Of a DNA stretch of 64,000 nt, positions 5,690-61,817 are shown one piece after another. The stretch's first letter is position 1, and every line of letters starts with the position of its first letter. The notes below the pieces were generated by a model. That model worked only from the letters and a program-made list of their open reading frames with translations. It was not told the DNA's origin and made no database searches. Source of the DNA: an uncultured Bacteroidota bacterium. GTDB lineage: Bacteria > Bacteroidota > Bacteroidia > Bacteroidales > P3. The translations under genes and the position numbers were made by a program. The stretch spans positions 1 through 64,000 of the forward strand of contig CADAWR010000007.1 of NCBI GenBank assembly GCA_902791695.1, in the 5' to 3' direction.

Positions 5690-5810
5690 GATGCGGTCCG
5701 TAGTCGCTCCGTATACTCTCCGACCTCTCTCCGACAAAAAACCGTTAAACAACCGGTGAACAGACGGAGCGGGTACGGAGCGGGTACGGGGCGGGTGCGG
5801 TGTGAAAACG
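5690..5810. repeat. 11-bp phased CG-ended repeat element, copy A
   Basis: Eleven consecutive 11-bp units, each ending in CG, run from 5690 to 5810. They include ACAAAAAACCG, the core TTAAACAACCG (5745-5755), GTGAACAGACG, two copies of GAGCGGGTACG, and GTGTGAAAACG. The element ends 5 bp before the stop codon of the minus-strand gene at 5816. Related copies lie at 12395, 33160, 42919 and 61709. Pyrimidine-rich CTCCG units on the left mirror purine-rich CGGAG units on the right, so the element is roughly an inverted repeat. Confidence 0.9.
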
Positions 5811-5815
5811 TGCTT

Positions 5816-6205
5816 TTAGTAGGTCGCAACTATCTCGGTGACGATGTACTGGCTGTTGCCGCGCCAGGGGAGGGTGCCGAGGTAGCGCTTCCAGCGGAGC
5901 TCGACGTGCTTGCCTGAGCAGCGCATCAGGCTGTCGGCCACGGCGTTGTCGGTGACGGAGAACTTGAATTCGTTGCTGTGGAGGCCGTCGACATCTTTGG
6001 TGGTCGACTTGAAGCCGCTCTGTATCATCTTGCCTTCGTAGGTCTTGAAGACCACGCCTTCGCGCTGGAAGTAGTTGATGTCGCCGGCGTTGACACCGCT
6101 GCTGTAGACGAAGCAGAAGCGGAAGTAGATGAAGAGGCCGAGGGCGATGACGGCGGTGATGATGATGATGGTGATAATCTTTGATTTAACGGTCATTTTT
6201 GCCAT
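5816..6205 (-). CDS. Small conserved single-pass membrane protein
   Basis: A 129-residue protein with a basic N-terminus (MAKMTVKSK), one membrane segment at about residues 10-29, and a periplasmic domain ending in ELRWKRYLGTLPWRGNSQYI, where the LPWRG part is typical of a small Bacteroidota family. I recall relatives carrying unreliable enzyme names in databases, so no function is assigned. The open frame extends upstream to 6289, but a TATCTTTG promoter box at 6229-6236 lies inside that extension. This fixes the start at the ATG at 6205. Confidence 0.8.
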   Translation of the reverse strand: MAKMTVKSKIITIIIITAVIALGLFIYFRFCFVYSSGVNAGDINYFQREGVVFKTYEGKMIQSGFKSTTKDVDGLHSNEFKFSVTDNAVADSLMRCSGKHVELRWKRYLGTLPWRGNSQYIVTEIVATY

Positions 6206-6228
6206 GATGATGGTGCTTTTTTGTGATG

Positions 6229-6236
6229 CAAAGATA
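6229..6236 (-). promoter_or_regulatory. -7 element TATCTTTG of the small membrane protein gene
   Basis: A perfect TAnnTTTG match on the minus strand, about 23 bp before the ATG at 6205. The expected transcript start falls near 6224 and gives a leader of about 20 nt. The divergent ackA start is at 6309. Confidence 0.75.
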
Positions 6237-6308
6237 TGAAAAAATGCGCGTGTGGCAAAATAAAAAAGGCAGGTGCGCGTTATTAGCATAAATTAAGTTA
6301 TCTGCCTT

Positions 6309-7508
6309 ATGAAGATATTGGTTCTCAACTGCGGCAGTTCGTCGCTTAAGTATCAGCTCATTGACGTTGATACGCGTACGGTAATGACCAAAGGTTTGCT
6401 GGAGCGTATCGGTTTGGAGAGCGGCATTTTTACCTACACTTCGCGTGGCGAGAAGCACACCGTGGAGCGCCCCATAGCCAACCACACCGAGGGTTTGCGC
6501 ATGGTGATGGATGCGTTGACAGACCCGCAGACGGGCGTCATTTCCAGCATCAAGGAGTTGGGTGCAGTGGGTCACCGCTTTGCCCACGGCGGCGAGTATT
6601 TCACGCAGAGTGTGCAGATTACGCGCGACGTCATCAACAAGGAGGAGTCGCTCATCGACCTGGCGCCGTTGCACATACCGGGCAACATCATGGGCGCCGA
6701 GGCTATCAACAACGTGATGCCCGACGTGCCGCAGGTGGCTGTGTTCGACACCTCGTTCAACCTCAGCATCGAGCCCAAGAACTACCTCTACGGCATTCCT
6801 TATGAGTACTATGAGCAGTACGGCATACGCCGCTACGGCTTCCACGGCACGAGCCACCGCTTCGTGGCCAAGCGCGGCGCGAAGATGATTGGTAAATACT
6901 GGAAAGACTTGAAAATCATCACCTGCCACCTTGGCAGCGGCGCCTCGATATGCGCCATAGACCATGGCAAGAGCGTCAACAACTCGATGGGTATGACCTC
7001 GCTGGAGGGCCTCACCATGGGCTCGCGTTGCGGCGACATCGACGTGGGCGCGGTGCTCTACCTGATGGACAAGGCCAATATCAGTCCCAAGGAAATCAAC
7101 GACATACTGTATAAGAAGAGCGGCCTGACCGGTTTGACCGGTGCTTCGCCCGACATGCGCGACATCTGGGCCGGCGTGCAGCGCGGCGACAAGCGCAACA
7201 CCCTGGCTTTCGAGGTGTTTGCACAGCGCTGCAAAAAGTATATAGGTGCTTTCATGGCGCAGATGAACGGCTGCGACCTGCTCATTTTCACTGGCGGAAT
7301 AGGTGAGAATGCCTGGTTCATGCGCCACGCCATATTGCAGGATATGGACTGGCTGGGCGTGGATATAGACATGGAGCTCAACGACCGCACGGCAGGCGTC
7401 GACGCCGTCATCAGCAAGCCTGGCGCACGGGTGACCACCGCCGTGGTGCTCACCGACGAGGAGCTGGCCATTGCCGTCGATACCTACAAGATTGTTACCG
7501 GACAATAA
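6309..7508 (+). CDS. ackA: Acetate kinase
   Basis: A 399-residue ASKHA-fold kinase that converts acetyl phosphate and ADP to acetate and ATP. Family motifs are all visible: NCGSSSLKY at residue 7, GHRFAHGG near 92, FDTSF near 148, RRYGFHGTSH near 177, HLGSGASI near 208, and FTGGIGENAW near 323. Length is normal for the family. Phosphotransacetylase, its usual partner, is not adjacent. anmK follows 6 bp after the stop, so the two probably share a transcript. No consensus promoter is seen in the short gap to the divergent small membrane protein gene. Confidence 0.97.
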   Translation: MKILVLNCGSSSLKYQLIDVDTRTVMTKGLLERIGLESGIFTYTSRGEKHTVERPIANHTEGLRMVMDALTDPQTGVISSIKELGAVGHRFAHGGEYFTQSVQITRDVINKEESLIDLAPLHIPGNIMGAEAINNVMPDVPQVAVFDTSFNLSIEPKNYLYGIPYEYYEQYGIRRYGFHGTSHRFVAKRGAKMIGKYWKDLKIITCHLGSGASICAIDHGKSVNNSMGMTSLEGLTMGSRCGDIDVGAVLYLMDKANISPKEINDILYKKSGLTGLTGASPDMRDIWAGVQRGDKRNTLAFEVFAQRCKKYIGAFMAQMNGCDLLIFTGGIGENAWFMRHAILQDMDWLGVDIDMELNDRTAGVDAVISKPGARVTTAVVLTDEELAIAVDTYKIVTGQ

Positions 7509-11465: not shown

Positions 11466-12287
11466 TCATTTTTCAGCACTGTTGGCCATCACGTCCTTGG
11501 GACGCACCGAAAGCACGGGGATGCGCGACTGGTTGATCATCTGTTGCGCGTAGGTGCCGAGGATGAGGCTCGAGAGGTTCTTCTCCTGCTCGGTCATGAT
11601 GGCTATCATGTCGGCATTCACGGCATTGGCGTATTCCAGCGTGTCGGCGGTGACGTTCTTGCTTACGTCAATGAATTTTGTGGTATATTTAACCTCGTTT
11701 TTGTCCAGGAATTTCTCCACCATCTTGACATAGTTGTCAACAATGCCGCGCACATCGGCCGCCTTGGCGGTGTAGAGGCCCAGCAGGTGTATTGTGGAGC
11801 CAAAAGCCTTGGCAAACATGGCGGCGGCGGCCACTTTCTGGCGCGTATCGTCGCTGTTGTCCAGCGGCACCACGATGGTCTCCAGTGCCTTGTTGAAGTT
11901 AAAGTCTTCGCGCACAATGAGTACGGGTACTGGCGACTGCTCTATTGTCTTGTAGCTGTTGCGTCCCAGCATGCTGGTTTTCATACCGCTCATGCCGTGG
12001 GTGCCGACTATGAGCAGTGCGGCATTGTCCTCGCGGGCCTGAGCCGTCAGCTCGTCGGCCGGATTGCCCTGGCGCAGCACATACTCCAGCTTGATGCCTT
12101 TCAGCAGCGGTGCCACTGCGGCGTTGCGCCGTTCAATCTCCTCGCGGATAGGCCCTTCGGCCTCGTTTTTCTCCTTCACATACACCAACCTTATGTCGCT
12201 TTCGAAACGGTTGGCGATATCAATGGCAAGGTCAACGGCATAGGCCGAGCCTGACGAAAAGTCAAATCCAACAACTACTTTATTCAT
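11466..12287 (-). CDS. Universal stress protein with two UspA domains
   Basis: A 273-residue cytoplasmic protein with tandem UspA folds. The first starts at MNKVVVGFDFSSGSAYAVDL and has the nucleotide-loop pattern IVGTHGMSGMKTSMLGRNSY near residue 105. The second begins IVVPLDNSDDTRQKV near 145 and ends with a degenerate loop ending LSSLILGTYAQQMI. The frame is open upstream to 12458, but a TAATTTTG box at 12315-12322 shows that the start is the ATG at 12287. Such tandem proteins usually bind ATP and respond to stress or energy state. The SPOR gene follows 1 bp downstream. Confidence 0.9.
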   Translation of the reverse strand: MNKVVVGFDFSSGSAYAVDLAIDIANRFESDIRLVYVKEKNEAEGPIREEIERRNAAVAPLLKGIKLEYVLRQGNPADELTAQAREDNAALLIVGTHGMSGMKTSMLGRNSYKTIEQSPVPVLIVREDFNFNKALETIVVPLDNSDDTRQKVAAAAMFAKAFGSTIHLLGLYTAKAADVRGIVDNYVKMVEKFLDKNEVKYTTKFIDVSKNVTADTLEYANAVNADMIAIMTEQEKNLSSLILGTYAQQMINQSRIPVLSVRPKDVMANSAEK

Positions 12288-12394: not shown

Positions 12395-12526
12395 AAGCCC
12401 CTTCGTACCCGCTCCGTACCCGCTCCGACTCCGCACCGACAAAAGGCCGGAAAATCAACGCTTAAGGGTCGATGAAAAGACGGAGTTGAGACGGAGTTGA
12501 GACGGAGGGAAGACGGAGCGGAGTCG
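12395..12526. repeat. 11-bp phased CG-ended repeat element, copy B
   Basis: Twelve successive 11-bp units, each ending in CG, fill 12395-12526. They include TACCCGCTCCG twice, ACAAAAGGCCG, CTTAAGGGTCG, GAGTTGAGACG twice, and GAGCGGAGTCG. The canonical core unit is replaced by GAAAATCAACG and CTTAAGGGTCG, so sequence has drifted while the 11-bp spacing is intact. It lies in the divergent gap between the universal stress gene and rnfB, outside both promoters. The rest of this 387-bp gap holds only those promoters and A/T-rich sequence. Confidence 0.88.
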
Positions 12527-12674: not shown

Positions 12675-13592
12675 ATGACTCAACAAATCCTGATTGCGGT
12701 AATTGTTCTCGGCGCCCTCGGCATACTGTTTGCCGTGGTGCTGTACATTGTGGCGCAGAAGTTTAAGGTGGTGGAAGACCCGCTCATCGACGAGGTTGCC
12801 GAGGTGCTTCCCGGTGCCAACTGCGGCGGCTGCGGCAAGGCCGGCTGCCGTGCGTTTGCCGAGGCTTGTGTGTCGCAGCACAGTCTCGAAGGCCTGCGTT
12901 GTGCCCCCGGTGGCGATGCTGTGGCAGCCAAGATTGCCGAGCTGCTCGGCTGCGCCGTTGAGCAAGGCGAGCCCCAGGTGGCTGTGGTGCGTTGCAACCC
13001 CGCCAACTGCGGCGACAAACGTAAGTCGAACTACGACGGACTGCGCAGCTGCGCTTTCCAGAACACTGTCTACACCGGCGAGAGCGGCTGCCCGTTCGGT
13101 TGCCTCGGCTGTGGCGACTGTGTGGCGGCCTGCCAGTTCGACGCCATCCATATGGGCGAGAACGGTGTGCCCGTGGTCGATGCCGACAAGTGCACGGCCT
13201 GCGGTGCCTGCGCCAAAGCCTGTCCGCGCCGCATCATAGAGCTGCGCAACAAGGGCAAGAAGGACCGCCGTGTGTATGTGAGCTGCGTCAACAAGGAGAA
13301 AGGTGCTGTGGCCATGAAGACCTGCGCCAATGCCTGCATAGGCTGCGGCAAGTGCGCCAAGGTGTGCCCCATGGAGGCCATCACTGTCGAGGGCAACGTC
13401 TCGTACATCGACTACAAGAAGTGCATAGCCTGCCGCAAGTGCGTCACCGAGTGCCCCACCAAGGCCATCAAGGATGTGGGCTTCCCGGCGCCCGCCGTCA
13501 AGCCGGCCCCCAAGCCCGCCGAGGCTCCTGCCGCCCCCGCCGCAGAGAAGGTGGAGATACCCGTGGCCGAAAAGGTGGAGGTAAAGAACTGA
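12675..13592 (+). CDS. rnfB: Rnf complex subunit B (multi-cluster ferredoxin-like subunit)
   Basis: This 305-residue subunit passes electrons between soluble ferredoxin and the membrane Rnf complex. It has one N-terminal membrane helix (residues 5-27) and a Fe-S domain with Cys ligands in NCGGCGKAGC near residue 50. Below are four ferredoxin-type motifs: CLGCGDCVAAC near 146, CTACGACAKAC near 174, CIGCGKCAKVC near 220 and CIACRKCVTEC near 249. The tail is an Ala/Pro/Lys-rich linker ending in repeated EKVE words. It is the first gene of the operon, under the promoter at 12589-12619. Confidence 0.96.
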   Translation: MTQQILIAVIVLGALGILFAVVLYIVAQKFKVVEDPLIDEVAEVLPGANCGGCGKAGCRAFAEACVSQHSLEGLRCAPGGDAVAAKIAELLGCAVEQGEPQVAVVRCNPANCGDKRKSNYDGLRSCAFQNTVYTGESGCPFGCLGCGDCVAACQFDAIHMGENGVPVVDADKCTACGACAKACPRRIIELRNKGKKDRRVYVSCVNKEKGAVAMKTCANACIGCGKCAKVCPMEAITVEGNVSYIDYKKCIACRKCVTECPTKAIKDVGFPAPAVKPAPKPAEAPAAPAAEKVEIPVAEKVEVKN

Positions 13593-31629: not shown

Positions 31630-33113
31630 TGCTTGCGGTGTTTTAGGCGGTTTACTACTTGTGTCACAAGCTTGCGTTCGCCGTAGAGGACCACGGCGAG
31701 GTAGACGAGTATCAGCACTGTGTTCCACGTCAGCCTCAGCCACAGCGCCTCGGGGTGCACCACCACCGTGAGGGCGTAGAGCACATGCGCCAGCAGCATG
31801 TAGCCGAGGATGGTCCACACGGGGTAGGGCACAGGGTTCTTCTTCTGCCCTATGAAGTAGCTCAGCAGCACGCAGACGCCATAGCCCACCAGGCCGCCCC
31901 AGGCGCAGGCCATGTAGCCCACCTTGGGCACGAAGACGACGTTCACCGCCACCAGCGCCGCGCACCCTATGGCGCTCATCACGGCGCCCCACCAGGTCTG
32001 CCCGTTGAGCTTGTACCAGAAGCTCAGGTTGAAGTAGATGCCCATCAGTATCTCGGCCATCATCACTATCGGCACCGCAGGCAGCGCCTCCCAGTAGTCG
32101 GGGCTCACCAGATAGCGGAACACATCCATATAGCACATCACGGCCAGGAACGCCAGCAGCGTGAACATGACGAAATACTTTGTCGCCTGCGCCTGCGTCT
32201 CTTTGCTCTGCTTGTCGCGCTGCCCGCCAAAGACGAACGGCTCGTAGGCATAGCGGAACGCCTGTGTGATAATGGCCATAATCATGGCAATCTTCACGCA
32301 GGCACCGTAGAGGCCAAGCTGTACGCGCCCCTCGTCGCCAGGCAGCAACCACGGCAGCAGTATCTTGTCGGCCACCTGGTTGAAGATGCCCACGATGCCG
32401 AACAGCAGCAGCGGCCAGGCATATCTCAACATGGGTTTCAGTGTCTGCAGGCTGAACGTCGACGGCCTGTAGTCGCGAAGCTCGCTGGCGAATCCGAAGG
32501 TGACGAGCGCAGTGCACAGCAGGTTGATATAGAAGATGTAGCCTACGTTGTCGGCTGCGTCGTACCAGCCCATCCACGAGTGGGAGGTCCAGTGTGGAGC
32601 CACGACAAAGACAAACAAGTTCAGCGCGAGGCTGGCGACGATGAATCCCAACTTGAGCCCGGCGAAGTGCCACGCCTTGCCCTTCTGGCGCAGGCGGGCG
32701 AAGAGTATGGCCTGGAAGGCGTCGAGCGCCACTACGCAAGCCATCACGCGGATGTACTCCGGGTGGTCGGCGTAGCCCATGACGCCGCTTATGGAGCCCG
32801 TGAACGTCATCACCAGCGCCACAAACGCCAGTGCCACAGTGCCCACAGCCGTCAGCGCGGTGCTGAACACCTGCCGCTCGTCGCGGTCGCTCTTGTTGGC
32901 GAAGTAGAAGTAGGTCGTCTCCATGCCGAAAGTCAGTATCACCAGCAGCAGCGCCGTGTAGGCGTAGACGTTGGTCACCACACCGTAGCCGCCCGAAGCG
33001 GCGCTTATGTGGTAGGTATATACCGGGACGAGCAGATAGTTCAGGAACCTGCCCACGATGCTGCTGAGGCCGTAAACGACCGAATCCGAGAGAAGTTTCT
33101 TCAGTGAAGCCAT
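31626..33113 (-). CDS. Wzx/MATE-like polysaccharide flippase
   Basis: A 495-residue polytopic protein with about 12-14 membrane segments. The N-terminal MASLKKLLSDSVVYGLSSIVGRF is the classic opening of polysaccharide biosynthesis (Wzx-type) exporters of the MOP superfamily. They flip lipid-linked oligosaccharides to the periplasmic face. It leads a minus-strand operon with the small lipoprotein, radical SAM and 189-residue genes. No glycan synthesis cluster is adjacent, so the substrate is undefined. Copy C of the 11-bp element lies directly upstream. Confidence 0.9.
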   Translation of the reverse strand: MASLKKLLSDSVVYGLSSIVGRFLNYLLVPVYTYHISAASGGYGVVTNVYAYTALLLVILTFGMETTYFYFANKSDRDERQVFSTALTAVGTVALAFVALVMTFTGSISGVMGYADHPEYIRVMACVVALDAFQAILFARLRQKGKAWHFAGLKLGFIVASLALNLFVFVVAPHWTSHSWMGWYDAADNVGYIFYINLLCTALVTFGFASELRDYRPSTFSLQTLKPMLRYAWPLLLFGIVGIFNQVADKILLPWLLPGDEGRVQLGLYGACVKIAMIMAIITQAFRYAYEPFVFGGQRDKQSKETQAQATKYFVMFTLLAFLAVMCYMDVFRYLVSPDYWEALPAVPIVMMAEILMGIYFNLSFWYKLNGQTWWGAVMSAIGCAALVAVNVVFVPKVGYMACAWGGLVGYGVCVLLSYFIGQKKNPVPYPVWTILGYMLLAHVLYALTVVVHPEALWLRLTWNTVLILVYLAVVLYGERKLVTQVVNRLKHRKQ

Positions 33114-33159
33114 AATGTTCTCCTAACGCGCGTATGCGAAAAAAATTGTGTCCCGTCCC

Positions 33160-33334
33160 ACATTTCGCCGTCCCCGCTCCGTATCCCCTCCGTTTCCGCT
33201 CCGACTGTTCACCGGTTGTTCTACGACTGTTCGACGGTTTAAACCGTTAAACAACCGGTGAACAACCGGTGAACAGACGGAGAAGGTACGGAGAGGGTAG
33301 GGCGAGGGGGCGGAGAGGGGTAAAATTGTCGGCG
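33160..33334. repeat. 11-bp phased CG-ended repeat element, copy C (long palindromic form)
   Basis: Sixteen units run from 33160 to 33334. All are 11 bp except one central 10-bp unit, GTTTAAACCG (33237-33246). The left arm has CTCCG units and GTTGTTCTACG. The right arm has TTAAACAACCG, GTGAACAACCG, GTGAACAGACG and purine-rich CGGAG units. The two arms are inverted copies around GGTTTAAACC. It fills the divergent gap between the flippase operon and the GH20 gene, where no consensus promoter is visible. Confidence 0.92.
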
Positions 33335-33388
33335 GGGGCGCAATATTTCGCGCGCGAGACCGTTATTTGGAGATAAAAGGTTAACGAT

Positions 33389-34735
33389 ATGAGAAAATGG
33401 ATAATTGCGGCGATGGGGCTGCTGGTGATGTGGGGCTGCGGTCGTACGGCGACGGTGACGGAGCTGGACATTGTGCCGGAGCCGGTCTTCATGGTGCAGA
33501 AGGAGGGCGGCTTCACGTTGCATTCGACGCTGAAGATGAGTATCACGGGCGTGGGGCAGAATTCACCGACGCTGAAGTGCATGATGAAGACGTTTCGGTC
33601 GGCGCACCTGCATCCGTCGCTGGTGCCTTCGTCGTCGGCCAGCGACATAGAGCTGGTGTTGAACGACACGGTGAATACGGAGCTGGGTGCAGAGGGCTAC
33701 CTGCTGGAGGTGCGAGGCGACGGCATCCACCTGTCGGCCAACAGCGAGGTGGGCTTGCTGTACGGTGTGCAGACTTTGATGCTGATGCTGCCGCCCGACG
33801 TGACGAAGGTCTCGTACTCGGCAGTGACGCTGCCAGAGTGCACGATACTGGATCATCCGCGCTTCGAGTGGCGCGGGCTGGCGGTGGACGACAGTGCCGG
33901 CGTACTGGGGAAGAAGTTTGTGAAGCGGCTGGTAGACGTGATGTCGCAGTACAAGCTGAACCGCCTGCAGCTGGCGTCGCCGTGTGTGACGGATACCGAC
34001 GAGAGGGCTGAGCTGTGCGAGTATGCCGCTGCGCGCAATGTGGCGCTGATGGTTGTGGACAGTGGCGGCTGGGAGTTCGAGACGGACACTGTGTATTGCC
34101 GCCGTGGGTTCTATGAGGGTTTGGAACGTGCCCGCGAGGGCTGCAGGGTGGTGATGAGTCCGGCCGACTACTGTTCGTTTGACCGCTACCAGGCCGACCC
34201 GCGCTACCAGCCGAAAGCGGAGGCTGGGGTGGTGACGCTGGCGCGTACATACAGCTTCGAGCCGGTGCCCGACGGTACATCGGGTCACTTGGCGGAGGCC
34301 ATCGTGGGTGGCTGCGGACGCTATACGGCCATTGTGGGCAGTGATGCGCGCAGGGCCGAATATATGCTGCTGCCGCGCATGTTGGCGCTGGCTGAGGCGT
34401 TGTGGTCGCCGAGTGAGAAGCGCGACTGGAGCCTGTTCCGCCGCAAGACGGAGATGCAGAAGGAGCGTCTGTCGGCCCGAGGCTACAACTACTGCGAGGG
34501 CTCGTTCACGCCGCTCTTCACGGCACGCCGTGTGGACGACGCGACGATGAACATAGAGATAACCACCGAGGTGCCGAACACCTACATTTTCTACACCACT
34601 GACGGGAGCACACCGACGCGCGCAAGCTCGGTGTACATAGGCCCGGTGAACATGACGCGCGGCACCCACATCAAGATACTGCCCGTATACAAGGGCGAGG
34701 AACGCGATTCGGTGTATGAGTTTGTGATTAAATGA
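33389..34735 (+). CDS. Degenerate GH20 (beta-hexosaminidase-like) lipoprotein
   Basis: A 448-residue lipoprotein (lipobox MWGC, Cys17). The N-terminal GH20b domain and barrel start are visible: SNSEVGLLYGVQTL-like NSEVGLLYGVQTLMLML near residue 120 and HPRFEWRGLAVDDS near 153. The late barrel and end are also there: GCRVVMSPADYCSFD near 250, EYMLLPRMLALAEALWSP near 330, and a chitobiase C-terminal domain (TTDGSTPTR). The middle third of the barrel is missing, including the HxGGDE catalytic Asp-Glu pair. It is likely a non-catalytic or differently acting lipoprotein. It overlaps hydE by 4 bp. Confidence 0.82.
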   Translation: MRKWIIAAMGLLVMWGCGRTATVTELDIVPEPVFMVQKEGGFTLHSTLKMSITGVGQNSPTLKCMMKTFRSAHLHPSLVPSSSASDIELVLNDTVNTELGAEGYLLEVRGDGIHLSANSEVGLLYGVQTLMLMLPPDVTKVSYSAVTLPECTILDHPRFEWRGLAVDDSAGVLGKKFVKRLVDVMSQYKLNRLQLASPCVTDTDERAELCEYAAARNVALMVVDSGGWEFETDTVYCRRGFYEGLERAREGCRVVMSPADYCSFDRYQADPRYQPKAEAGVVTLARTYSFEPVPDGTSGHLAEAIVGGCGRYTAIVGSDARRAEYMLLPRMLALAEALWSPSEKRDWSLFRRKTEMQKERLSARGYNYCEGSFTPLFTARRVDDATMNIEITTEVPNTYIFYTTDGSTPTRASSVYIGPVNMTRGTHIKILPVYKGEERDSVYEFVIK

Positions 34736-42784: not shown

Positions 42785-42815
42785 CAAAATTACGAAATAA
42801 TATTTACACAGCAAA
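42785..42815 (-). promoter_or_regulatory. Promoter of crt (and probably hbd)
   Basis: On the minus strand TTTG (42812-42815) is followed after 19 bp by TAATTTTG (42785-42792), an exact consensus pair. The ATG lies about 20 bp downstream. Confidence 0.85.
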
Positions 42816-42918
42816 AATATTTTTCAACGTCCTGTTGAAGCCCCGCTTCCTCCATATCCACTCCGTCCCCGCTCCTCCTCCATTAAGTTAGGGGAGGACC
42901 CACAGGGCGGAGTGTGTC

Positions 42919-43050
42919 GAACCCCTACCTACCCCCTATCTACCCCCTACCTACCCCCTACGCCCCCTCTCCGACAAAAAACCGTTAAACAACCGGTGAA
43001 CAGTCGGAGCGGGTACGGAGCGGGTACGGACCGGCTGCGATGCTCCAACG
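42919..43050. repeat. 11-bp phased CG-ended repeat element, copy D
   Basis: The element starts with 11-bp units TACCCCCTACC, TACCCCCTATC and TACCCCCTACG. It continues in phase with CCCCCTCTCCG, ACAAAAAACCG, the core TTAAACAACCG (42985-42995), GTGAACAGTCG, two GAGCGGGTACG units, GACCGGCTGCG and ATGCTCCAACG. About 120 bp stay in register. It lies upstream of the crt promoter in the gene-poor stretch 42765-43858. Confidence 0.9.
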
Positions 43051-43146
43051 GAGTGGGGCAGTGTTTTTTTTTGAACGCGAATTACCGTGAATGGACGTGA
43101 ATTATCATAGGGCAAGCGCATTGAATCTTACATCAACTAACCATAA

Positions 43147-43377
43147 GAGCCCCGGAGAGGCTCAATCTCAATGACACCATACAAGCGACAGCGTCGCGCA
43201 GTGTGGTGAAGATGCCACAGCCAGCCCATGCGTCCCGGAGAGACGCGAATTCTTTTGAGGCAGGTTTGAAATCGCGTCTCTCCGAGACGCATGGGACAAG
43301 GTGGTTTTTCCTTGCCCCAGACTGCATTACATTTGTCTGGGGTTACTGAGATTCAGCCTCTGCGAGGCTGTGTCTTC
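43147..43377. repeat. Nested inverted-repeat element
   Basis: Outer arms: GAGCCCCGGAGAGGCTC at 43148 onward is partnered by a complementary arm ending in GCCTCTGCGAGGCTG near 43370, with AATCTCA on the inner side of each. Inner arms: 43225-43248 and 43272-43295 are complementary over 24 bp with one mismatch and contain CGGAGAGACGCG. A further hairpin CCCCAGAC...GTCTGGGG is at about 43315-43342. No open frame fits. It looks like a small palindromic mobile or structural repeat. Confidence 0.8.
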
Positions 43378-43610
43378 AACGATTCTCTAGTGTGAATGAA
43401 TGTCAAAATTGATGCTTTTGCCCTGTGAATTATCGTAGTGTTAAAGTTTGTTAAAAATGCACCCTCCGTGAGCCTTTTTGCCGATTATTTGAGTTTATAT
43501 TAATGCGTATGTATGCATGGAGAAATGTCAGGGATTTTGTAAATAATGTTAAATCGACAGAGAGGTGCACCTTTTGGGGGAGAAAAGCGTTTTTATTATA
43601 GAGGAAGGAA

Positions 43611-43644
43611 TTTTTTGTCAGATAAAAAATTATTTGTATCTTTG
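43611..43644 (+). promoter_or_regulatory. Strong promoter upstream of a decayed gene
   Basis: TTTG (ending 43617) is followed after 19 bp by TATCTTTG (43637-43644), an exact consensus. It now drives the gene remnant at 43701 and probably the lipoprotein at 43859. Confidence 0.88.
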
Positions 43645-43700
43645 CATCGACGGAAAGATGTGTAATAATAAACAATCTGTCGTTTGAAAAACAACATGTT

Positions 43701-43825
43701 ATGAAAAAGAATTGGGTTATTGCTTACAAACTGTGGATGTTAATGGGCTTACTGCCGGTACCTACACTGTTTACTTGCTCTCCTCCGGGGTACCTGTGGA
43801 TGCGACAACTTTGATTGTAAGATGA
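43701..43825 (+). pseudogene. Remnant of a T9SS type A cargo gene (start joined to tail)
   Basis: An ATG with a MKKNWVIAYK-like start at 43701 is followed after about 8 codons, in another frame, by 33 codons (43724-43825). These read like the end of a type A T9SS sorting domain: DVNGLTAGTYTVYLL, then a short tail ending LIVR and a stop. The body of the gene is gone. The consensus promoter and a roughly 50-nt leader in front are intact, which supports a collapsed real gene, not chance sequence. Confidence 0.65.
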
Positions 43826-43858
43826 AACAAATGCTTATTAACCATAAAAAACAATACT

Positions 43859-44440
43859 ATGAAAAAACAAGGATTAAGAATACTAATGGCGGCTGTGCTT
43901 TGCGGCCTGTGCATGGCTGCGTGCAGCAAGGAGGAGGTGCAGAACAATGTGTTAGCGGAACCTCAGGTTACGGCTTCTGCCGGGACAGGCCTAATTGACG
44001 GTTCGTCGCAACAGGCAGGCGATACACTGGCGGGCTATCAGTTCATACCACTCGAGCAGTACCTGCTTGGCGAGTGGCGGCTAGACCCAAGGTACGTTAC
44101 GGTCTCCGGTGATATGGATCATGGTTGGACACGATTTCATGACACATACGAGATGCATGTGCCAGGGGAAGAGCCCGCATGCGGCAATACGGAAGAGGGC
44201 ATTGTCTTCGATACCGCAGGAAACATAATATACAGGGTGACTGGAGAGGAGGATTTTGCTACAGCTTATGCTGTTAGCGACAGCATTGTAATACAGACAG
44301 TGTATCCCGGTGAGGCTGAACTGAGGGCTGTGCGGTGTTTCCAGATAAGCGCCGACAGTATGGCCATTTATGGATACGTGCCTAAATGTGACTATCTGTG
44401 TATGGTGCAGGCATACCTTTTCCTCCGTGTGAGGGAATAA
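43859..44440 (+). CDS. Lipoprotein of unknown function
   Basis: A 193-residue lipoprotein (signal MKKQGLRILMAAVLCGLC, lipobox MAAC, Cys near 21). The mature protein contains LGEWRLDPRYV, resembling lipocalin-like small Bacteroidota lipoproteins that open with GEW. It has several paired Cys later in the chain. No firm family is assigned. It is probably transcribed from the promoter at 43611-43644 through the remnant gene. Confidence 0.75.
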   Translation: MKKQGLRILMAAVLCGLCMAACSKEEVQNNVLAEPQVTASAGTGLIDGSSQQAGDTLAGYQFIPLEQYLLGEWRLDPRYVTVSGDMDHGWTRFHDTYEMHVPGEEPACGNTEEGIVFDTAGNIIYRVTGEEDFATAYAVSDSIVIQTVYPGEAELRAVRCFQISADSMAIYGYVPKCDYLCMVQAYLFLRVRE

Positions 44441-44451
44441 GGTCATGAAAC

Positions 44452-44569
44452 GTTAAAGTTTAGTTAAAAAAGGCCCTGTCCGCTTGGAGGGGCCTTATAT
44501 TATATATGCGCCACTTCTTCAGGTGAGGTGGCGCGAGTGTTCTTTGACATGTTGAGAAGATTGGTTTAT
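44452..44569 (-). terminator. 3'-UTR module with terminator after cca (copy 1 of a conserved pair)
   Basis: Read on the minus strand from the cca stop: a conserved lead of about 31 nt (ATAAACCAATCTTCTC, then AACATGTCAAAGAAC), a hairpin GCGCCAC/GTGGCGC (44508-44534), ATATAATATA, a terminator stem AAGGCCC.../...GGGCCTT (44470-44496) with six T, then AACTAAACTTTAAC. The module at 55455-55568 has the same flanks and order but different stem sequences. Confidence 0.88.
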
Positions 44570-46011
44570 TGTCCGGCGACGGGGGTGAGGCCGAGGCCTT
44601 TGGCGAGGTCGAGCATCATCTGCCAGGCGGCGTCGCGCTCGTTGGGTATCTGGCCGTCGAGGATGGCATCCTTGATGGCGTCCTTGATAGTGCCTATCTC
44701 GCGGCAGGGGCCTATGCCGAAGGTGGTCATGATGTCTTCGCCGCTCACCGGGGGCTGGAAATTGCGTATGCGGTCGCGTTCCTCGAGCTCGACGAGTTTG
44801 CGCTTCACCAGCTCGAAGTTGGCGCGGTGGCGGCGCTGCTTCTCCTCGTTGCGTGTGGTGATGTCGGCATTGCAGAGGAGCATGAGGTCTTCGATGTCGT
44901 CGCCAGCCTCGAAGAGGAGGCGGCGCACGGCGCTGTCGGTGACAACGTCCTCGGCAAGGATGATGGGGCGCATGTGGAGCATGACGAGCTTCTCGACGTA
45001 GCGCATCTCTTCGCCCAGCGGCAGGCGCAGGCGCTTGAAGATACGCTTCACCATATGGGCGCCGCGGGCCTCGTGGCCGTGGAACGACCAGCCCTGCTTG
45101 GGGTCGTAGTGCTTGACGCCGGGCTTGCCGACGTCGTGCAGCAGAGCCGCCCAGCGGAGCCAGAGGCTGTCGGCGGTCGAGGCAACATTGTCGAGCACCT
45201 GCATGGTGTGGTAGAAGATGTCCTTGTGGCCGCGGCCGTCGACTGTTTCAACGCCTTGCAGGGCGCTGATTTCTGGTAGGATGAGTTGCATGAGGCCGCA
45301 TTTCTGCATCAGCTTGAGTCCCACGGATGGGGTGGGGGAGAGCATTATCTTGTTGAGCTCCACCATGACGCGCTCGGCGCTGACTATCTCGATGCGCTTG
45401 GCGTTGCGGGTGATGGCCTCGAAGGTGTCGTCGGCTATGCGGAAGCCAAGCTGCGAGGCAAAGCGTACGGCGCGCATCATGCGGAGAGGGTCATCGCTGA
45501 AAGTGATGTCGGGGTCGAGGGGTGTGCGGAGGATGCCCGCGTCGAGGTCGGCGATGCCGCCGAAGGGGTCCATGAGCTCGCCGTAGCGTTCGGCGTTGAG
45601 GCATACGGCGAGGGCGTTGACGGTGAAGTCGCGCCGCCGTTGGTCGTCTTCGAGGGTGCCGTTCTCCACAACCGGCTTGCGGCTGTCGTGGGAGTAGCTC
45701 TCGCGTCGTGCGCCGACGAATTCCAGCTCGTATTCATGTCCGTCGACGGTGTGGCGGAAGCTGGCGGTGCCGAAGGTTTTGAAGACCGATACCTTGCTGC
45801 CGCCGAGAGCTTGCGAGGCTGCATGGGCAAGCTCTATACCTATGTGCACCTCGCCGCCTTCGGTATTGCCGATGCAGACTACGTCGATGTCGGTGCAAGG
45901 GCGCTGTAGGAAATAGTCGCGCACCACCCCGCCCACGGCGTAGGCGTCGATGCCGAGCCTGTCGGCACACTGGCCGATGGTGCGGTAGAGGTCAAGCCCA
46001 AGGTCTATCAT
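44566..46011 (-). CDS. cca: CCA tRNA nucleotidyltransferase with HD domain
   Basis: This 481-residue enzyme adds or repairs the 3'-CCA end of tRNAs. The nucleotidyltransferase motif is AYAVGGVVRDYFLQRPCTDIDVVC near residues 24-48. RRRDFTVNALAV near 125 and DPLRMMRAVRFASQLGF near 173 bind ATP and CTP. An HD domain follows (WAALLHDVGKPGVKH near 282, HGHEARGAHM near 305), giving phosphohydrolase activity in some relatives. The stop codon falls in the first bases of the conserved 3' module at 44452-44569. Confidence 0.95.
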   Translation of the reverse strand: MIDLGLDLYRTIGQCADRLGIDAYAVGGVVRDYFLQRPCTDIDVVCIGNTEGGEVHIGIELAHAASQALGGSKVSVFKTFGTASFRHTVDGHEYELEFVGARRESYSHDSRKPVVENGTLEDDQRRRDFTVNALAVCLNAERYGELMDPFGGIADLDAGILRTPLDPDITFSDDPLRMMRAVRFASQLGFRIADDTFEAITRNAKRIEIVSAERVMVELNKIMLSPTPSVGLKLMQKCGLMQLILPEISALQGVETVDGRGHKDIFYHTMQVLDNVASTADSLWLRWAALLHDVGKPGVKHYDPKQGWSFHGHEARGAHMVKRIFKRLRLPLGEEMRYVEKLVMLHMRPIILAEDVVTDSAVRRLLFEAGDDIEDLMLLCNADITTRNEEKQRRHRANFELVKRKLVELEERDRIRNFQPPVSGEDIMTTFGIGPCREIGTIKDAIKDAILDGQIPNERDAAWQMMLDLAKGLGLTPVAGQ

Positions 46012-46571: not shown

Positions 46572-47087
46572 TTATTTAATTGCTTTGAATGTTTCTGATA
46601 ATGTGCGGAGGGTGCCGTAGCTGCCTTCGAGGCGACGATGCCACTCGTTGGGCGAGACCCACTCGACGGCCGTGATGCCCTCCTCCTGCTGTGGATTGCC
46701 GACGGCGGTACTGTCGGCCACGGCCATTGGGAACCACGATGTCTGCTTCAGGTGCCAGCCTTTGGGGAAGTTCGCTCGACGAGCTCGCGGTCCCCATCTA
46801 AAGATGTGGTAGGTTTTGAGTGGCCGAGTGGCTGAGTGGCTGAGTGGCTTGGTTTTTATGCCCGTCTCCTCTTCCACTTCGCGAAGTGCGGCTTGCAGGA
46901 GCGTTTCGCTGGCTTCCACTTTGCCTTTAGGCAGATCCCAGCGGTTGTTGCGGAGAATGAGCAGCATTTTGCCGTCGTCGCGTGTCACAATGCCGCCGGC
47001 GGCGCGAATCCACCGCATGCGGCGTTTCAGCAGGCGCAGCAGCCAAATGGGTACGTTCCAGGTGTGGTATTTGTATGATAGTTTCAT
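46572..47087 (-). CDS. NUDIX hydrolase with an 8-bp repeat insertion
   Basis: A 171-residue cytoplasmic protein with a complete Nudix box near residue 54: GKVEASETLLQAALREVEEE followed by TGI. WDLPKGK precedes it. Substrate is unknown. Right after the box, four 8-bp units (46818-46849) encode KPLSHSATRPLK. Then an unusual basic stretch WGPRARRANFPKG interrupts what is normally a short loop before the LKQTSWFPM strand. The start overlaps the META lipoprotein stop by 1 bp (47087). Confidence 0.88.
   Translation of the reverse strand: MKLSYKYHTWNVPIWLLRLLKRRMRWIRAAGGIVTRDDGKMLLILRNNRWDLPKGKVEASETLLQAALREVEEETGIKTKPLSHSATRPLKTYHIFRWGPRARRANFPKGWHLKQTSWFPMAVADSTAVGNPQQEEGITAVEWVSPNEWHRRLEGSYGTLRTLSETFKAIK
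46818..46849 (-). repeat. 8-bp tandem repeat inside the NUDIX gene
   Basis: Four units of GAGTGGCT/GAGTGGCC type on the plus strand (minus CACTCAGC, CACTCAGC, CACTCGGC, CACTCAAA). The unit length is not a multiple of three, so gain or loss of a unit shifts the frame downstream of the Nudix box. Confidence 0.9.
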
Positions 47088-47557
47088 TATTGTAGCTCGT
47101 ATTTCAGTATCTCTTTGCCTTTCTGGTAGAGTGTCATGGTATAGGCGTCGATACGGAGTGCATCGGCTTTTGGTAGGAGACTTATGTAGCGCGACTCAGC
47201 GTTCATGTCGGCTTCGTTACAGTATACCTTTGTGCTGCCAATGTCGCTGAGCTTCAGTGTGTAGTTATCGCCTTCTGGCGTCTGGGAGTCGAGCCGCAGG
47301 CGGTAGTTGCCGTAGTAGCTGTTGCATGTGGCTTTACCACTGACGGTGCCAGCTTCGGGGTTGAACATCAGCGTGATAATGTTGTCTGTGCGGCTCACGG
47401 CCTTGCCGCGCATAGCCACCAGCTGCCACACTTGACCCTTCTCTGGGGCGAGGGTGATTTGTTGTGCGGTGTCTTTGGCGGCCGGTTTGCTGTTCCCGCA
47501 AGCGACCAGCAACAGGCAAACAATCAGTGTGATATATGTTGCAATAGATGCTTTCAT
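47087..47557 (-). CDS. META-domain lipoprotein (HslJ-like)
   Basis: A 156-residue lipoprotein (signal MKASIATYITLIVCLLLVAC, lipobox LVAC). The mature domain resembles META/HslJ proteins: VWQLVAMRGKAV near residue 45, ITLMFNPEAGTVSGKATCNSYYG near 63, then a KLSDIGSTKVYC strand. Such domains occur in heat-shock and envelope lipoproteins. The start at 47557 is chosen over 47572 because it gives a clean lipoprotein signal. It heads the minus-strand run META, NUDIX, MORN, cca. Confidence 0.82.
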   Translation of the reverse strand: MKASIATYITLIVCLLLVACGNSKPAAKDTAQQITLAPEKGQVWQLVAMRGKAVSRTDNIITLMFNPEAGTVSGKATCNSYYGNYRLRLDSQTPEGDNYTLKLSDIGSTKVYCNEADMNAESRYISLLPKADALRIDAYTMTLYQKGKEILKYELQ

Positions 47558-47749: not shown

Positions 47750-48841
47750 ATGGTGGACGTTGACAAGGGCGCGCGGATTGTGATGGCGGTGAGCAACGAT
47801 TTGCTTACCGACCAGAGGGTTATGCGCCATGTGGCGGTGCTGAGAGAGGCTGGATATGAGGTGGAAACGGTGTGCAGGACGGACCTGCCGGTGAGGTGGC
47901 AGAAGGGGTGGCGCTTCTATGCGGCATTCAACTGGAGGCTGTGGAGAGAGATTAAAGGTGAAAGGTTAAAGGTGAAAGGTGAAAGGGTGATTGTGTGGGC
48001 GAATGATACGGACACGTTGCTCGGCTGCTGGCTGGCGGCGCATGGTAGGTGCAAGCTGGTGATGGATGCGCACGAGTTGTTTCCGGAGGTGCCTGAGATA
48101 CAGGAGAAGCCGCTGGTGAAGTGGGTGTGGAGGACGATAGAGAAGTGGCTGATGCCAAAGTGTGACGCGCTGATAACGGTTTGCCAGAGTATTGCTGACT
48201 ACTATAGAGAGAAGTTGGGAGTGCAGATGACGGTGGTGAGGAACTTGAGCAGTTATGAGTTAGGAGTTAGGAGTTATGAGTTAGGAGTTATGAGTTATGA
48301 GTTGGGGGATAATGTTTTGCTTTACGCGGGGAAGGTGAATGTGGGTAGGGGGGTAGATTGGGCGATAGATGCTTTGGAGTGGCTGCCTGAATGCCGCCTT
48401 ATAGTTGCCGGAGATGGCGACCTGTTGGAAGAAATGAAGGCGTATGCTGCGCAGAAGGCGTGGAGTGACCGTGTGGAGTTCACAGGCCGACTGCTGCCGG
48501 AGGCAATGACGGCACTGGCTGCAAAGGCCGATGTTGGGCTAGTGATGTTGGAGGATAAAGGTTTGAGTTACCACTTTGCGTTGCCCAACAGGGTTGGGAC
48601 CTTCGTGCAGGCTGGTGTGCCGATGGTGGTGAGCGATTTGCCAGAGATGGCGCGTGTGGTGAGAACCTTTGGCGTTGGCGCGGTAATGGAACGGCAGGGA
48701 ACTCTTGGACTTGTCGATGCAGTCAAAGCTGTGCTGGCAAGGAATTGGAAGGATGATGACTTCGCCGCTGCGCGCGAAGATATGGATTGGAACAAAGAAA
48801 AACAAAAACTGATTGATTTATGCTATACGATTTGCTGTTAG
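47750..48841 (+). CDS. GT4-type glycosyltransferase with heptanucleotide repeats
   Basis: A 363-residue GT-B fold transferase. The N-terminal domain has SNDLLTDQRVMRHVAVLREAGYEV (two overlapping family segments), VMDAHELFPEV near residue 104 and an LITVCQSIADYY strand near 142. The C-terminal nucleotide-sugar domain has LLYAGKVNVGRGVDWAIDAL near 186 and FALPNRVGTFVQAGVPMVVSDLPEM near 275 (usual E motif partly changed). Two in-frame tracts of 7-bp repeats interrupt it: 47954-47988 (KGERLKVKGER) and 48251-48306 (SYELGVR-like). Both fall in loops. The end overlaps lepB by 22 bp. Confidence 0.88.
   Translation: MVDVDKGARIVMAVSNDLLTDQRVMRHVAVLREAGYEVETVCRTDLPVRWQKGWRFYAAFNWRLWREIKGERLKVKGERVIVWANDTDTLLGCWLAAHGRCKLVMDAHELFPEVPEIQEKPLVKWVWRTIEKWLMPKCDALITVCQSIADYYREKLGVQMTVVRNLSSYELGVRSYELGVMSYELGDNVLLYAGKVNVGRGVDWAIDALEWLPECRLIVAGDGDLLEEMKAYAAQKAWSDRVEFTGRLLPEAMTALAAKADVGLVMLEDKGLSYHFALPNRVGTFVQAGVPMVVSDLPEMARVVRTFGVGAVMERQGTLGLVDAVKAVLARNWKDDDFAAAREDMDWNKEKQKLIDLCYTICC
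47954..47988 (+). repeat. Heptanucleotide tract 1 in the glycosyltransferase gene
   Basis: Units AAAGGTG, AAAGGTT, AAAGGTG, AAAGGTG and a final AAAGGGT(G). Slippage by one unit would shift the reading frame. Confidence 0.9.
48251..48306 (+). repeat. Heptanucleotide tract 2 in the glycosyltransferase gene
   Basis: Eight perfect-length 7-bp units (AGTTATG, AGTTAGG and one AGTTGGG). Three units make 21 bp, hence the repeated seven-residue word SYELGVx in the protein. Confidence 0.95.
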
Positions 48842-50358
48842 CACTCTATTTCGTGGGTCCCATAGTGGGCTTATGGTTTATCTTCAAGAAGGCCGGTGTG
48901 GCGCCGTGGAAGGCTGTGGTTCCACTGTACAACATCGTTGTGTGGATTAAGGTATGTGGCAAAAGTTGGAAGTGGTACATCTATTTCCTGGTGCCGGCAC
49001 TTAACATATTCACCTATCTGTTGATGGTTGTGGAGACGGCCAAGGTTTTTCGCCGCTACGGCTTCTGGGAGCAGTTCTTCGCTGTGGTGTTCCCCTGGGT
49101 GTATTTGCCGATACTTGGTTTGTCAAAAGGCACAACGTACCATGACCCTAAGACCGACCCACCGCAAAAAGTCGGCGAGGTGCGCGACTGGCTCGACGCC
49201 ATCGTCTTCGCCATTGTGGCTGCTGTCATAATACGTGGCTTCACATGCGAGCTGTACAACATACCGTCGAGCTCGATGGAGGGAAGCCTGATGACCGGTG
49301 ACTACTTGCTGGTGAGCAAGTTGGCATATGGACCGAGAGTGATGATGACGCCTCTTGCATTGCCGTTGATGCATAACACTATACCCGGTACTGGTGACAA
49401 GGTGGAGAGTTACTTGCGCTGGCCGCAGCTGCCCTATCACCGCTATCCGGGACTCTCGAAGGTTAAGCGCTACGACGCTGTGGTGTTCAACTTCCCCGCC
49501 GGTGACACTACCCTCAAGGCCAGCCCTGGTAACCAGTACACTTATTACGACGCTGTGCGCAACAATAGTCTGGAACTTCTGCGCGACGGCTGGTTTGTGC
49601 GGCCTGTGGATAGAAGGACGAACTATATCAAGCGCTGCATTGGCCTGCCGGGCGAAAATCTGCAGATTGTTAACCAGCAAGTGTTCATCGATGGCAAGCC
49701 CATAGCCAACCCAAAGGATGCGCAGACGACATATGGTTTCCTTACCAACAGTCGCGGTCTACCGCCGCAGATGATCCAGCAGGAACTCGACAGACTCGGT
49801 CTCAGTTATCAGGATATTGAGAATGCCGGTCCTTACGTCGTCGATTCCACTGGGGTGCTGTTTGCCTACGATGTGCCGTTGAACAAGCGTCAGCTCTATG
49901 CTCTAGAGCAGTGGGCTCAGGCTCAGGGGGTGAGAATTGTAGCAGACACGATGCCTGCCACCGATGACATCAACCTTTTCCCACACCGCATGGGTCAGAT
50001 GCAGAGTGTGGACAATTTCGGCCCAGTGCATATTCCCGCTAAGGGCGAAGTGCTTGAATTGAATGACAGCACACTGCCGATGTACCGTCGCTTAATAACT
50101 GTTTACGAGCATAATACGCTGGAAGTGAAAGCCGGCAAGATTTTTATCAACGGTGAACAGACAGACAGATACACGGTAAAGCAGAACTACTACTGGATGA
50201 TGGGCGACAACCGTCACCATAGTCAGGATTGCCGCTTCTGGGGCTTCGTCCCCGAGGACCACATAGTTGGTAAAGCCAAGTGGGTGCTTTTCAGTCGCGA
50301 TAAAGACCGTGGTATTTTCCGCAAGGGACGCTGGTTCATAGACGCCTGCGCATATTGA
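48820..50358 (+). CDS. lepB: Signal peptidase I
   Basis: A 512-residue Bacteroidota-type leader peptidase, longer than proteobacterial enzymes. Membrane helices lie at about residues 3-22, 50-68 and 83-97, and another precedes the catalytic domain. The nucleophile Ser is in YNIPSSSMEGSLMTGDYLLV near residue 150. The general-base Lys is in TNYIKRCIGLPGENL near 270. The C-terminal box is YYWMMGDNRHHSQDCRFWGF near 462. A large insertion separates the last two, as in this phylum. It starts inside the glycosyltransferase gene. Confidence 0.95.
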   Translation: MLYDLLLALYFVGPIVGLWFIFKKAGVAPWKAVVPLYNIVVWIKVCGKSWKWYIYFLVPALNIFTYLLMVVETAKVFRRYGFWEQFFAVVFPWVYLPILGLSKGTTYHDPKTDPPQKVGEVRDWLDAIVFAIVAAVIIRGFTCELYNIPSSSMEGSLMTGDYLLVSKLAYGPRVMMTPLALPLMHNTIPGTGDKVESYLRWPQLPYHRYPGLSKVKRYDAVVFNFPAGDTTLKASPGNQYTYYDAVRNNSLELLRDGWFVRPVDRRTNYIKRCIGLPGENLQIVNQQVFIDGKPIANPKDAQTTYGFLTNSRGLPPQMIQQELDRLGLSYQDIENAGPYVVDSTGVLFAYDVPLNKRQLYALEQWAQAQGVRIVADTMPATDDINLFPHRMGQMQSVDNFGPVHIPAKGEVLELNDSTLPMYRRLITVYEHNTLEVKAGKIFINGEQTDRYTVKQNYYWMMGDNRHHSQDCRFWGFVPEDHIVGKAKWVLFSRDKDRGIFRKGRWFIDACAY

Positions 50359-61414: not shown

Positions 61415-61438
61415 AAACCTTATTGTTTTCATAACGTG

Positions 61439-61446
61439 CAAAATTA
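61439..61446 (-). promoter_or_regulatory. -7 element TAATTTTG of the T9SS protein gene
   Basis: A TAnnTTTG match on the minus strand, 25 bp from the ATG at 61414. It serves to decide between two candidate start codons. Confidence 0.7.
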
Positions 61447-61529
61447 CACTTTTTTCTGCACATTAGACGCATGCATCCCGTTTTTGTTACTCACGAAGTG
61501 CTTTTTTAACAATTTTTATGCTTCGTCAC

Positions 61530-61680
61530 CGGCCTGCCGCCCCTGTGGGGCTCATGATTTCCAAAGCGTCCGTTCCGTGGGCTCACGCCCACGGCTAGCA
61601 ACTGCCGCCCCTTCGGGGCTCACGAAAAGCCCTGTTAAGGGCGTCAGTCTTTAGCCGTGGGGCGTGAGCCCACGGTACGG
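61530..61680. repeat. Palindromic intergenic element with CCGTGGGC...GCCCACGG arms
   Basis: Arms at 61570-61596 and 61653-61680 are complementary over about 27 bp with one or two differences; each arm contains GTGGGCTCACGCCC. Between them lie two small hairpins (GCCCCTTCGGGGC and GCCCTGTTAAGGGC), and a related GCCCCTGTGGGGC hairpin lies just before. No open frame is present. The form suggests a dispersed palindromic repeat. Confidence 0.8.
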
Positions 61681-61708
61681 CGGACATGATTTGTACCTAT
61701 TCCCTCTG

Positions 61709-61817
61709 TACCCCCTCCGTACCCGCTCCGTCTGTTCTACGGTTGTTCACCGGTTGTTCGATGGTTTAAACCGTTAAACAACCGGTGAACAACCGTAGAA
61801 CAGTCGGAGCGGGTACG
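61709..61817. repeat. 11-bp phased CG-ended repeat element, copy E (near-perfect palindrome)
   Basis: Units: TACCCCCTCCG, TACCCGCTCCG, TCTGTTCTACG, GTTGTTCACCG, GTTGTTCGATG, a central 10-bp GTTTAAACCG, TTAAACAACCG, GTGAACAACCG, TAGAACAGTCG and GAGCGGGTACG. The arms 61720-61767 and 61768-61815 are complementary at 44 of 48 positions. The element ends 8 bp before the mltG stop codon at 61826. Nothing else is evident in the 390-bp gap besides this and the palindromic element before it. Confidence 0.93.

Follow-up and report, generated by a model that had tools for sequence, protein, structure and literature searches.

Introduction

What kind of element would hold to a helical period more firmly than to its own bases? 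The question is raised by a stretch of 64,000 nucleotides from an uncultured Bacteroidota bacterium (assembly GCA_902791695.1, contig CADAWR010000007.1, positions 1 to 64,000; hereafter the window), in which five intergenic elements are built as chains of 11-bp units that mostly end in CG. An earlier note on the window read these chains as a dispersed family whose period is more conserved than its bases, and considered a one-face protein array or a stacked RNA hairpin. Our analysis supports that interpretation in part: the family and its period stand, the RNA hairpin is disfavored, and three properties had been missed, namely the dyad, the rule of one element per region and a minimum spacing. 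In one genus of gut Bacteroidales, genomes have about 100 such palindromes, set evenly between genes. The elements have a defined architecture, a spelling that changes in concert within a species, slots conserved between species, a site upstream of predicted promoters, one core per intergenic region and a spacing rule. To judge from the sequences, the 11-bp period and the dyad are the invariants, and the CG phasing is the local spelling of the species that holds the window.

Results

CG runs of at least six at a constant step were found in the window at lag 11 (four), lag 9 (two) and lag 18 (one) and at no other lag from 7 to 19, and 200 first-order Markov shuffles of the window gave 0.005 lag-11 runs of this length per shuffle, the longest of six. 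The genome that holds the window (G000) is an incomplete metagenome-assembled genome of 2.17 Mb, of which 1.26 Mb were read for element scans. Intergenic CG pairs in these 1.26 Mb were enriched 3.53-fold at lag 11, 3.25-fold at lag 22, 2.83-fold at lag 33 and 2.34-fold at lag 44, and the remaining lags from 2 to 43 gave 0.66 to 1.71. The core common to four of the five window copies, TTAAACAACCGGTGAACA, had 198 matches with up to two mismatches in the 2.17-Mb genome, versus one for a control. The element scans, which allowed up to three mismatches to the core, gave 74 core elements in the 1.26 Mb, from which about 127 are expected per genome; around these copies, CG-CG distances of 11 bp (n = 732) outnumbered those of 10 bp (n = 63) and 12 bp (n = 11). 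These results confirm the 11-bp-phased family and show it to be larger than first described. The earlier note had placed the five chains correctly, had proposed the genome-wide autocorrelation at lag 11 as a check, and had named as its refutation that shuffled sequence would give similar runs, which it does not.

The scans returned 89 clusters, 74 with the core and 15 without a core match, and seven of the latter, lying inside called genes, were treated as chance. Genes were called with a home-made, non-standard hexamer caller. After exclusion of two core elements at contig ends and one within a called gene, 71 dispersed intergenic core elements are left. The five elements of the window are:

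5690-5810, forward strand: half-dyad element of class II, in which an outer stem CTCCG...CGGAG encloses a conserved loop
12395-12526, no strand assigned: copy B, without the core, twelve 11-bp units ending in CG, between divergent genes
33160-33334, no strand assigned: class I element (full dyad), palindrome 33165-33316 with centre GGTTTAAACC
42919-43050, forward strand: class II element within an intergenic stretch of 1.8 kb (about 42.8-44.6 kb)
61709-61819, no strand assigned: class I element, near-perfect 104-nt dyad at 61716-61819

Exact lag-11 runs comprise 11 CGs at 5699-5810, 12 in copy B (12404-12526) and nine at 42961-43050. The CG register is broken at the dyad in both full dyads: the 33160 copy has seven CGs at 33169-33236 and then five at 33245-33290, and the 61709 copy has four at 61718-61752 and then five at 61772-61817. 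The former claim of up to 16 units in register fails as an unbroken run and holds only across this break, and the claim that copy B lacks the core and keeps the spacing is correct.

At the threshold used, 70 of the 74 core copies form a palindrome, spanning 79-180 bp (median 112); for the other four, edges were placed 40 bp from the core. Two classes are seen. Class I (n = 41) is a full dyad around the centre given above or a variant of it; its inner arm units follow the pattern TTGTT[CAC/CTA/TAA/CGA]CGG, its outer units are of the TACCCGCTCCG type, and the opposite side mirrors both. Class II (n = 33) has similar outer arms; its left inner arm is missing and its right inner arm is a conserved unpaired stretch. 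Since a copy was assigned by whether the core matched on both strands, some diverged class I copies may sit in class II, and one was seen. Of 2373 arm pairs in the 41 class I copies, 1962 are complementary, and by eye both ends of an element are made of the same units. Folded as single-stranded DNA, the two class I copies of the window gave z-scores of -9.9 and -16.5, and the other three copies -2.3 to -3.0.

The period reaches beyond the genome of the window. Among relatives we kept 80 of 148 loci found, each encoding one window protein, and 11 bp was the strongest internal repeat in 22 of their 60 palindromes. In 464 kb of G000, 22 of 31 palindromes were of 11-bp periodicity; the figures were 25 of 33 for a second species (G019), 5 of 31 for 429 kb from ten congeners and none of nine for 555 kb from 40 other families of the same order. 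Some of the genomes searched are apparently the same assemblies as loci of the relatives' set, so that the two sets are not independent. The bases differ from species to species. Unit sequences in the relatives include TCGTTGTACTA, ATATGTACAGT, GTTGTCCAGTT, TTCTCCCATAT and GTTCTTATATC, several of them without CG, which removes CG as an invariant and upholds the view that the period is more conserved than the bases. The unit pair AGTTCTTCAGT of genome G023 has 242 matches there, 60 in G008 and 0 to 7 in the other 59 genomes; the 18-base core of G000 is abundant in G000 and G019 (159 matches) only, and has any match in 13 of 99 genomes searched, these two included.

A weak unit motif is common to the species, GTTsTTCrgTa when read along the 5' arm. 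Over 17 units extracted automatically, its information was 8.03 bits; the maxima were 7.32 bits in 100 letter shuffles and 7.80 bits when arms were chosen at random 100 times, and 19 hand-picked units gave 8.79 bits. On the strength of this shared motif, the elements look like one old family with a drifting unit. Congeners carry differently spelled 11-bp dyads, sometimes in the same slot, so period and dyad would appear to outlast sequence. The change is concerted: the outer unit CGGAG[6]CGGAG has T at position 5 in 64% of cases in G000 versus 6% in G019, outer units differ species-wide (CGGGTA in G000, CGGGGA/GGGGGA in G019), and inner units of elements in orthologous slots change on both arms together (by eye). 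Three dyads in G000 have foreign units, in one case together with own-type outer units (by eye). Elements of G000 at locus L385 5413-5500 (G000 C2:145413), C9:98789 and C2:206473 have units that match the G008 type, the L064 type and another species family, which suggests exchange between species.

A second periodic-hairpin family is present in the clade. Its arms are made of 7-bp tandem units (AGTGTTT, GAAAGGT, AAATTGA, AAAGTTT and others), and several of the hairpins surround a loop resembling GGCTGCCGCAGTC (by eye). It was seen at loci L031, L034, L036, L055, L059, L413, L415, L417, L421, L425 and L426, and 7 bp was the strongest repeat in 13 of the 60 palindromes of the relatives and 10 of the 31 of the ten congeners. 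In another family of the order, a palindrome with repeated units of 22 bp lies at L352 12567-12695.

Slots are conserved between species. Of 35 G019 elements in the stretches read, 12 could be placed between two adjacent orthologues in G000, and 11 of these slots are occupied in G000, ten by core elements and at least two with the class switched. In the divergent region at 33113-33413 of the window, G000 has a class I element, G019 a class II element and G023 a dyad of unrelated TTCAGTAGTTC units; G015 has at this slot a short region without an element, in a comparison of species too diverged to see target duplications. Loci L042 and L047 differ in their units in the region bounded by the orthologues of 47087-47557 and 48820-50358. 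Five relatives each have a unit of their own ahead of the orthologue of the gene at 50447, although the upstream neighbor in these relatives was not matched to that of the window. The ends of contigs C3 and C9 of G000 (C3:1-310 and C9:1-310; L111, L130) hold the same 310 bp at 95% identity, including a class I element, and no transposon was recognised in this duplication.

The elements are evenly spaced. No region held two core elements, versus 8 to 11 expected by chance (none of 5000 draws reached zero), and none of 63 within-contig spacings was below 5 kb, versus 13.4-13.9 when the same numbers and kinds of regions were drawn (0 of 5000 draws as low). The coefficient of variation of the spacings was 0.59, versus 0.86-0.89 in random draws. 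Empty divergent regions lay at a median of 5.6 kb from an element, and occupied ones at 10.9 kb from their neighbor. With the two contig-end copies included, one of 65 spacings in G000 was below 6 kb (5.9 kb) versus about 19 expected from an exponential; the mean was 17.4 kb and the minimum about 6 kb. Among the elements listed, the smallest spacing was 6.5 kb in G019 (21 spacings) and 6.1 kb in G008 (14), and in G023, whose family is unrelated in sequence, 1 of 50 spacings was below 6 kb versus about 10 expected; as the lists of places for these three genomes are partial, these spacings are upper estimates.

Elements of other sequence types mostly respect this distance too. Of the eight intergenic core-less clusters in G000, copy B and three own-like dyads were tested together with the three foreign-type dyads, and all seven lie at least 6.7 kb from core elements (P = 0.003); the three foreign-unit elements alone lie at least 8.0 kb away (P = 0.04). 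The other four clusters (C3:79843, C9:74147, C4:38032 and C3:96854) were left out of the test, and the first three of these phased arrays lie 16.8, 9.3 and 12.7 kb from the nearest core.

The 71 intergenic core elements comprise 42 between divergent, 23 between tandem and six between convergent genes. They occupy 42 of 89 divergent regions of at least 100 bp (47%), 23 of 185 tandem ones (12%) and 6 of 32 convergent ones (Fisher P = 9e-10, divergent versus tandem), and these occupancies are lower bounds because the scans depend on the core. The 42 elements in divergent regions are centred, each with 50 bp or more to spare on either side (P = 4e-10 if placement were uniform); of the 23 in tandem regions, 20 are no more than 75 bp away from the stop codon upstream. 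TAnnTTTG is the -7 promoter box of the Bacteroidetes literature, and we used this consensus as a predictor in place of mapped promoters. A sense-strand box stood between element and gene on 79 of 107 gene-start sides (antisense, 10), and none lay inside an element on these sides; divergent regions without a core element had a box at a similar rate (66 of 94 sides). The gene-nearest box was at least 35 bp from the palindrome edge in all 79 cases (31 bp for the nearest when every box is counted), and in other species a sense box stood on 22 of 31 sides, the nearest at 48 bp. The elements thus occupy the space between transcription units and enter no predicted core promoter.

This position bears on the proposal that the elements act after transcription, as bidirectional terminators or long RNA hairpins. 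Strong hairpins (the z-scores given above were obtained by folding as DNA) and the closeness to upstream stop codons in tandem regions would suit such a role. However, 42 of the 71 occupied regions are divergent, the predicted promoters lie downstream of the element, and the arms show no excess of G-U: G-T and A-C mismatches are about equally common (107 and 97), and on the sense strand of tandem regions G-U (14) is rarer than A-C (29). No consistent T-run was seen by eye in the listed flanks of 44 copies. We have rejected an intrinsic terminator or RNA hairpin on these grounds and regard action at the RNA level as very improbable. An Rfam search of the window gave three matches above the gathering score, none of which overlaps an element, in keeping with the earlier impression that the elements fit no known riboswitch.

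The same position could be taken to mean that the elements are operators of one global transcription factor that binds 11-bp direct repeats, of the CarH or the OmpR/PhoB type, and that they have no structural role. OmpR/PhoB-type proteins bind 11-bp direct repeats, and the site upstream of predicted promoters is what an operator would have. Proteins that bind tandem 11-bp direct repeats on one DNA face are also described for CarH (PMC9304148) and RepB (PMC9943647). Against it, there are some 127 copies, those of the window have neighbors with unrelated functions, and a regulon would not be expected to show a minimum spacing or a limit of one core element in each region. The only MerR_1 match in the genome is an open frame of 108 amino acids, too short for a B12-binding CarH, and the CarH operator is rejected on this ground, which does not cover proteins of the OmpR type. 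We consider the operator explanation improbable.

The neighbors of the window elements are as follows. The element at 5690-5810 lies upstream of a DUF1846 gene (4104-5486, reverse strand) and ends 5 bp from the stop of a gene ending at 5816 on the reverse strand (5810 to 5816). Copy B is flanked by a Usp-domain gene (11466-12287, reverse) and a 4Fe-4S protein gene (12675-13592, forward), and the element at 33160-33334 stands between a divergent polysaccharide synthesis gene (reverse) and a GH20 hexosaminidase gene (forward). The element at 61709-61819 lies, measured from 61817, 8 bp from the stop of a YceG-like gene (61826-62854, reverse); both stop-codon distances had been given correctly. 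Opposite the intergenic stretch at about 42803-44588, the aligned G023 segment shows a gap of just 38 bp, the alignment skipping the stretch, which also holds a second inverted repeat at 43225-43295. An Acido-Lenti-1 RNA match (RF01687, 52.5 bits) lies at 61575-61620, about 90 bp before the 61709 element. The window, like its contig, starts inside a 5S rRNA (1-83), a typical assembly break.

Discussion

The strict 11-bp step, the units that point to the dyad and the free spelling suggest a protein that contacts the DNA once per turn from both sides, or DNA wrapped on a surface. We give somewhat less than an even chance to the reading we prefer, in which the elements are DNA-level nucleoprotein sites that act as evenly spaced insulators or domain sites of drifting specificity. 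A sequence-specific protein would load head to tail on one helix face, with a single protomer on each 11-bp unit, and would do so from either side in the direction of the central dyad; alternatively, the DNA might be wrapped on a surface in place of turn-by-turn binding. The resulting complex of 80-180 bp would sit between transcription units, just upstream of promoters, and may separate neighboring transcription units and supercoil domains. If the specificity of the protein drifts between species and the roughly 100 sites are homogenised in place, possibly by gene conversion, the bases would change while period, dyad and slot stay. The spacing, which is of the order of E. coli supercoil domains, favors spaced insulators or domain sites. 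The one-face protein array of the earlier note is compatible with the observations. A bolder form of the preferred reading, possible in our view and rather doubtful, is a hard-wired chromosome-partitioning code, in which arrays bound turn by turn by a fast-evolving, species-private protein would insulate divergent promoters and set domains of at least about 6 kb, array and protein co-evolving like centromeres and their binding proteins.

Several observations weigh against insulators or domain sites. No binding protein was found for the elements, whose insulating role we infer, and an oligomer stepping on B-DNA at exactly 11 bp drifts by about half a base per turn. Arm-to-arm gene conversion could keep the arms paired without function, and 4 of 74 core copies form no palindrome that passes the threshold. 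In congeners a slot is frequently vacant: ahead of one gene, 5 of 77 regions have a palindrome of this kind. No individual site can therefore be essential. In other species the enrichment between divergent genes is weak (9 of 25 versus a 23% background). One G023 pair lies 4.5 kb apart, which makes the spacing rule strong and not absolute; one non-core pair lies 3.8 kb apart, and the intergenic phased array C3:96854, which falls outside the test with P = 0.003, is 217 bp from a core element. Finally, selection alone hardly explains how about 100 sites drift in a coordinated way: this needs homogenisation, which a mobile element would supply.

The main rival is a non-autonomous palindromic mobile repeat, like a repetitive extragenic palindrome (REP) or a miniature inverted-repeat transposable element, that has transposition immunity, sparing targets close to a resident copy, and persists only where it does no harm, in gaps between transcription units. 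Mobility would account for the many copies, for sequence families private to a species and for the few foreign-type copies in G000; Mu-type immunity has an exclusion zone of several kb, as seen here; and flanks have recombined between genomes (1140 bp at 95% identity between G023 and G000). A search with PF01797 (Y1/RAYT), the one transposase family covered, gave one match in G023, which has its own element family. However, it gave no candidate in G000 or in G019 (completeness 81%), and G008 is without a match in a set where 46 of 61 genomes have one. Since a RAYT transposase was not found in the two genomes in which the core is abundant, the RAYT-REP system is rejected, in line with what the earlier note had supposed. 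A mobile repeat also accounts poorly for 11 of 12 slots shared between species, for spacing that is mostly respected by elements of other sequence types, and for a density that rises four- to fivefold from tandem to divergent regions. An origin from phages or plasmids was rejected as well: the 33160 copy matched none of them, and one viral contig has the core. Taken together, we find mobility unlikely, if less so than the operator explanation.

A scan of viral contigs for CG(N9CG)6 gave at least 120 stretches; 8 palindromes were found among 120, five of them 11-bp periodic. Viewed by eye, 45 of the stretches were 11-bp minisatellites, high-GC chance matches and GTCCGC...GCGGAC arrays. Viral contigs L158, L160, L231, L256 and L262 carry such 11-bp-phased GTCCGC...GCGGAC-like arrays, which are unrelated in sequence to the elements.

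Supercoil domains in bacteria are usually described as stochastic; if the elements are insulators, the boundaries of such domains in this genus would be fixed and readable. If the elements are mobile, they would represent target immunity in a repeat that encodes no transposase. With about 100 sites changing in concert, one can test how a binding protein changes along with its whole set of sites.

Among known systems, parC centromeres of ParMRC plasmids consist of 11-bp tandem repeats. So do the RepB iterons of pMV158 (PMC9943647). Compared by their descriptions only, both are single plasmid loci, in contrast to about 100 spaced chromosomal dyads. CarH/CarA operators are tandem 11-bp direct repeats on one DNA face (PMC9304148); in the parts of that source available to us they comprise 3-5 repeats overlapping the -35 or -10 at few promoters, with no dyad array described, and by eye the CarH unit nnnnTnnACAn fits the GTG and TTA variants of G000, not the TAG and TCG variants, and few other species.

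The motif of E. coli gyrase is degenerate and 10-bp phased, with a footprint of about 130 bp and a helically phased composition flanking the centre, and the enzyme accumulates downstream of active units (PMC6379681); E. coli supercoil domains are near 10 kb, with a range of 2-66 kb (PMC3820752). The elements resemble the gyrase motif, BIME-2 and the strong gyrase site of Mu in length, helical phasing and domain-size scale. They differ by their 11-bp period, their dyads and their position, which is upstream of predicted promoters and preferentially between divergent genes, and not downstream of transcription units as for BIME-2 and gyrase.

With REP/BIME and RAYT-REP sequences they have in common that they are dispersed, palindromic and intergenic, in about 100 or more copies of species-specific sequence. 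REPs are 20-40 bp long (PMC3733652), whereas the elements are 79-180 bp of 11-bp-phased units, mostly between divergent genes and evenly spaced; in place of a 20-40 bp hairpin with a tag at one end, they have the same units at both ends. By titles and the opening lines of abstracts, the open-access PMC literature, a scope that leaves subscription journals and preprints outside, gave no description of such elements.

We know of no bacterial repeat family in which a helical period is fixed while the sequence is free, and which also has a dyad, a position upstream of promoters, a single core element in each region and a least distance between copies. In this combination the elements have the look of sites that space or insulate the chromosome, and they differ from the repeat families with which we compared them.

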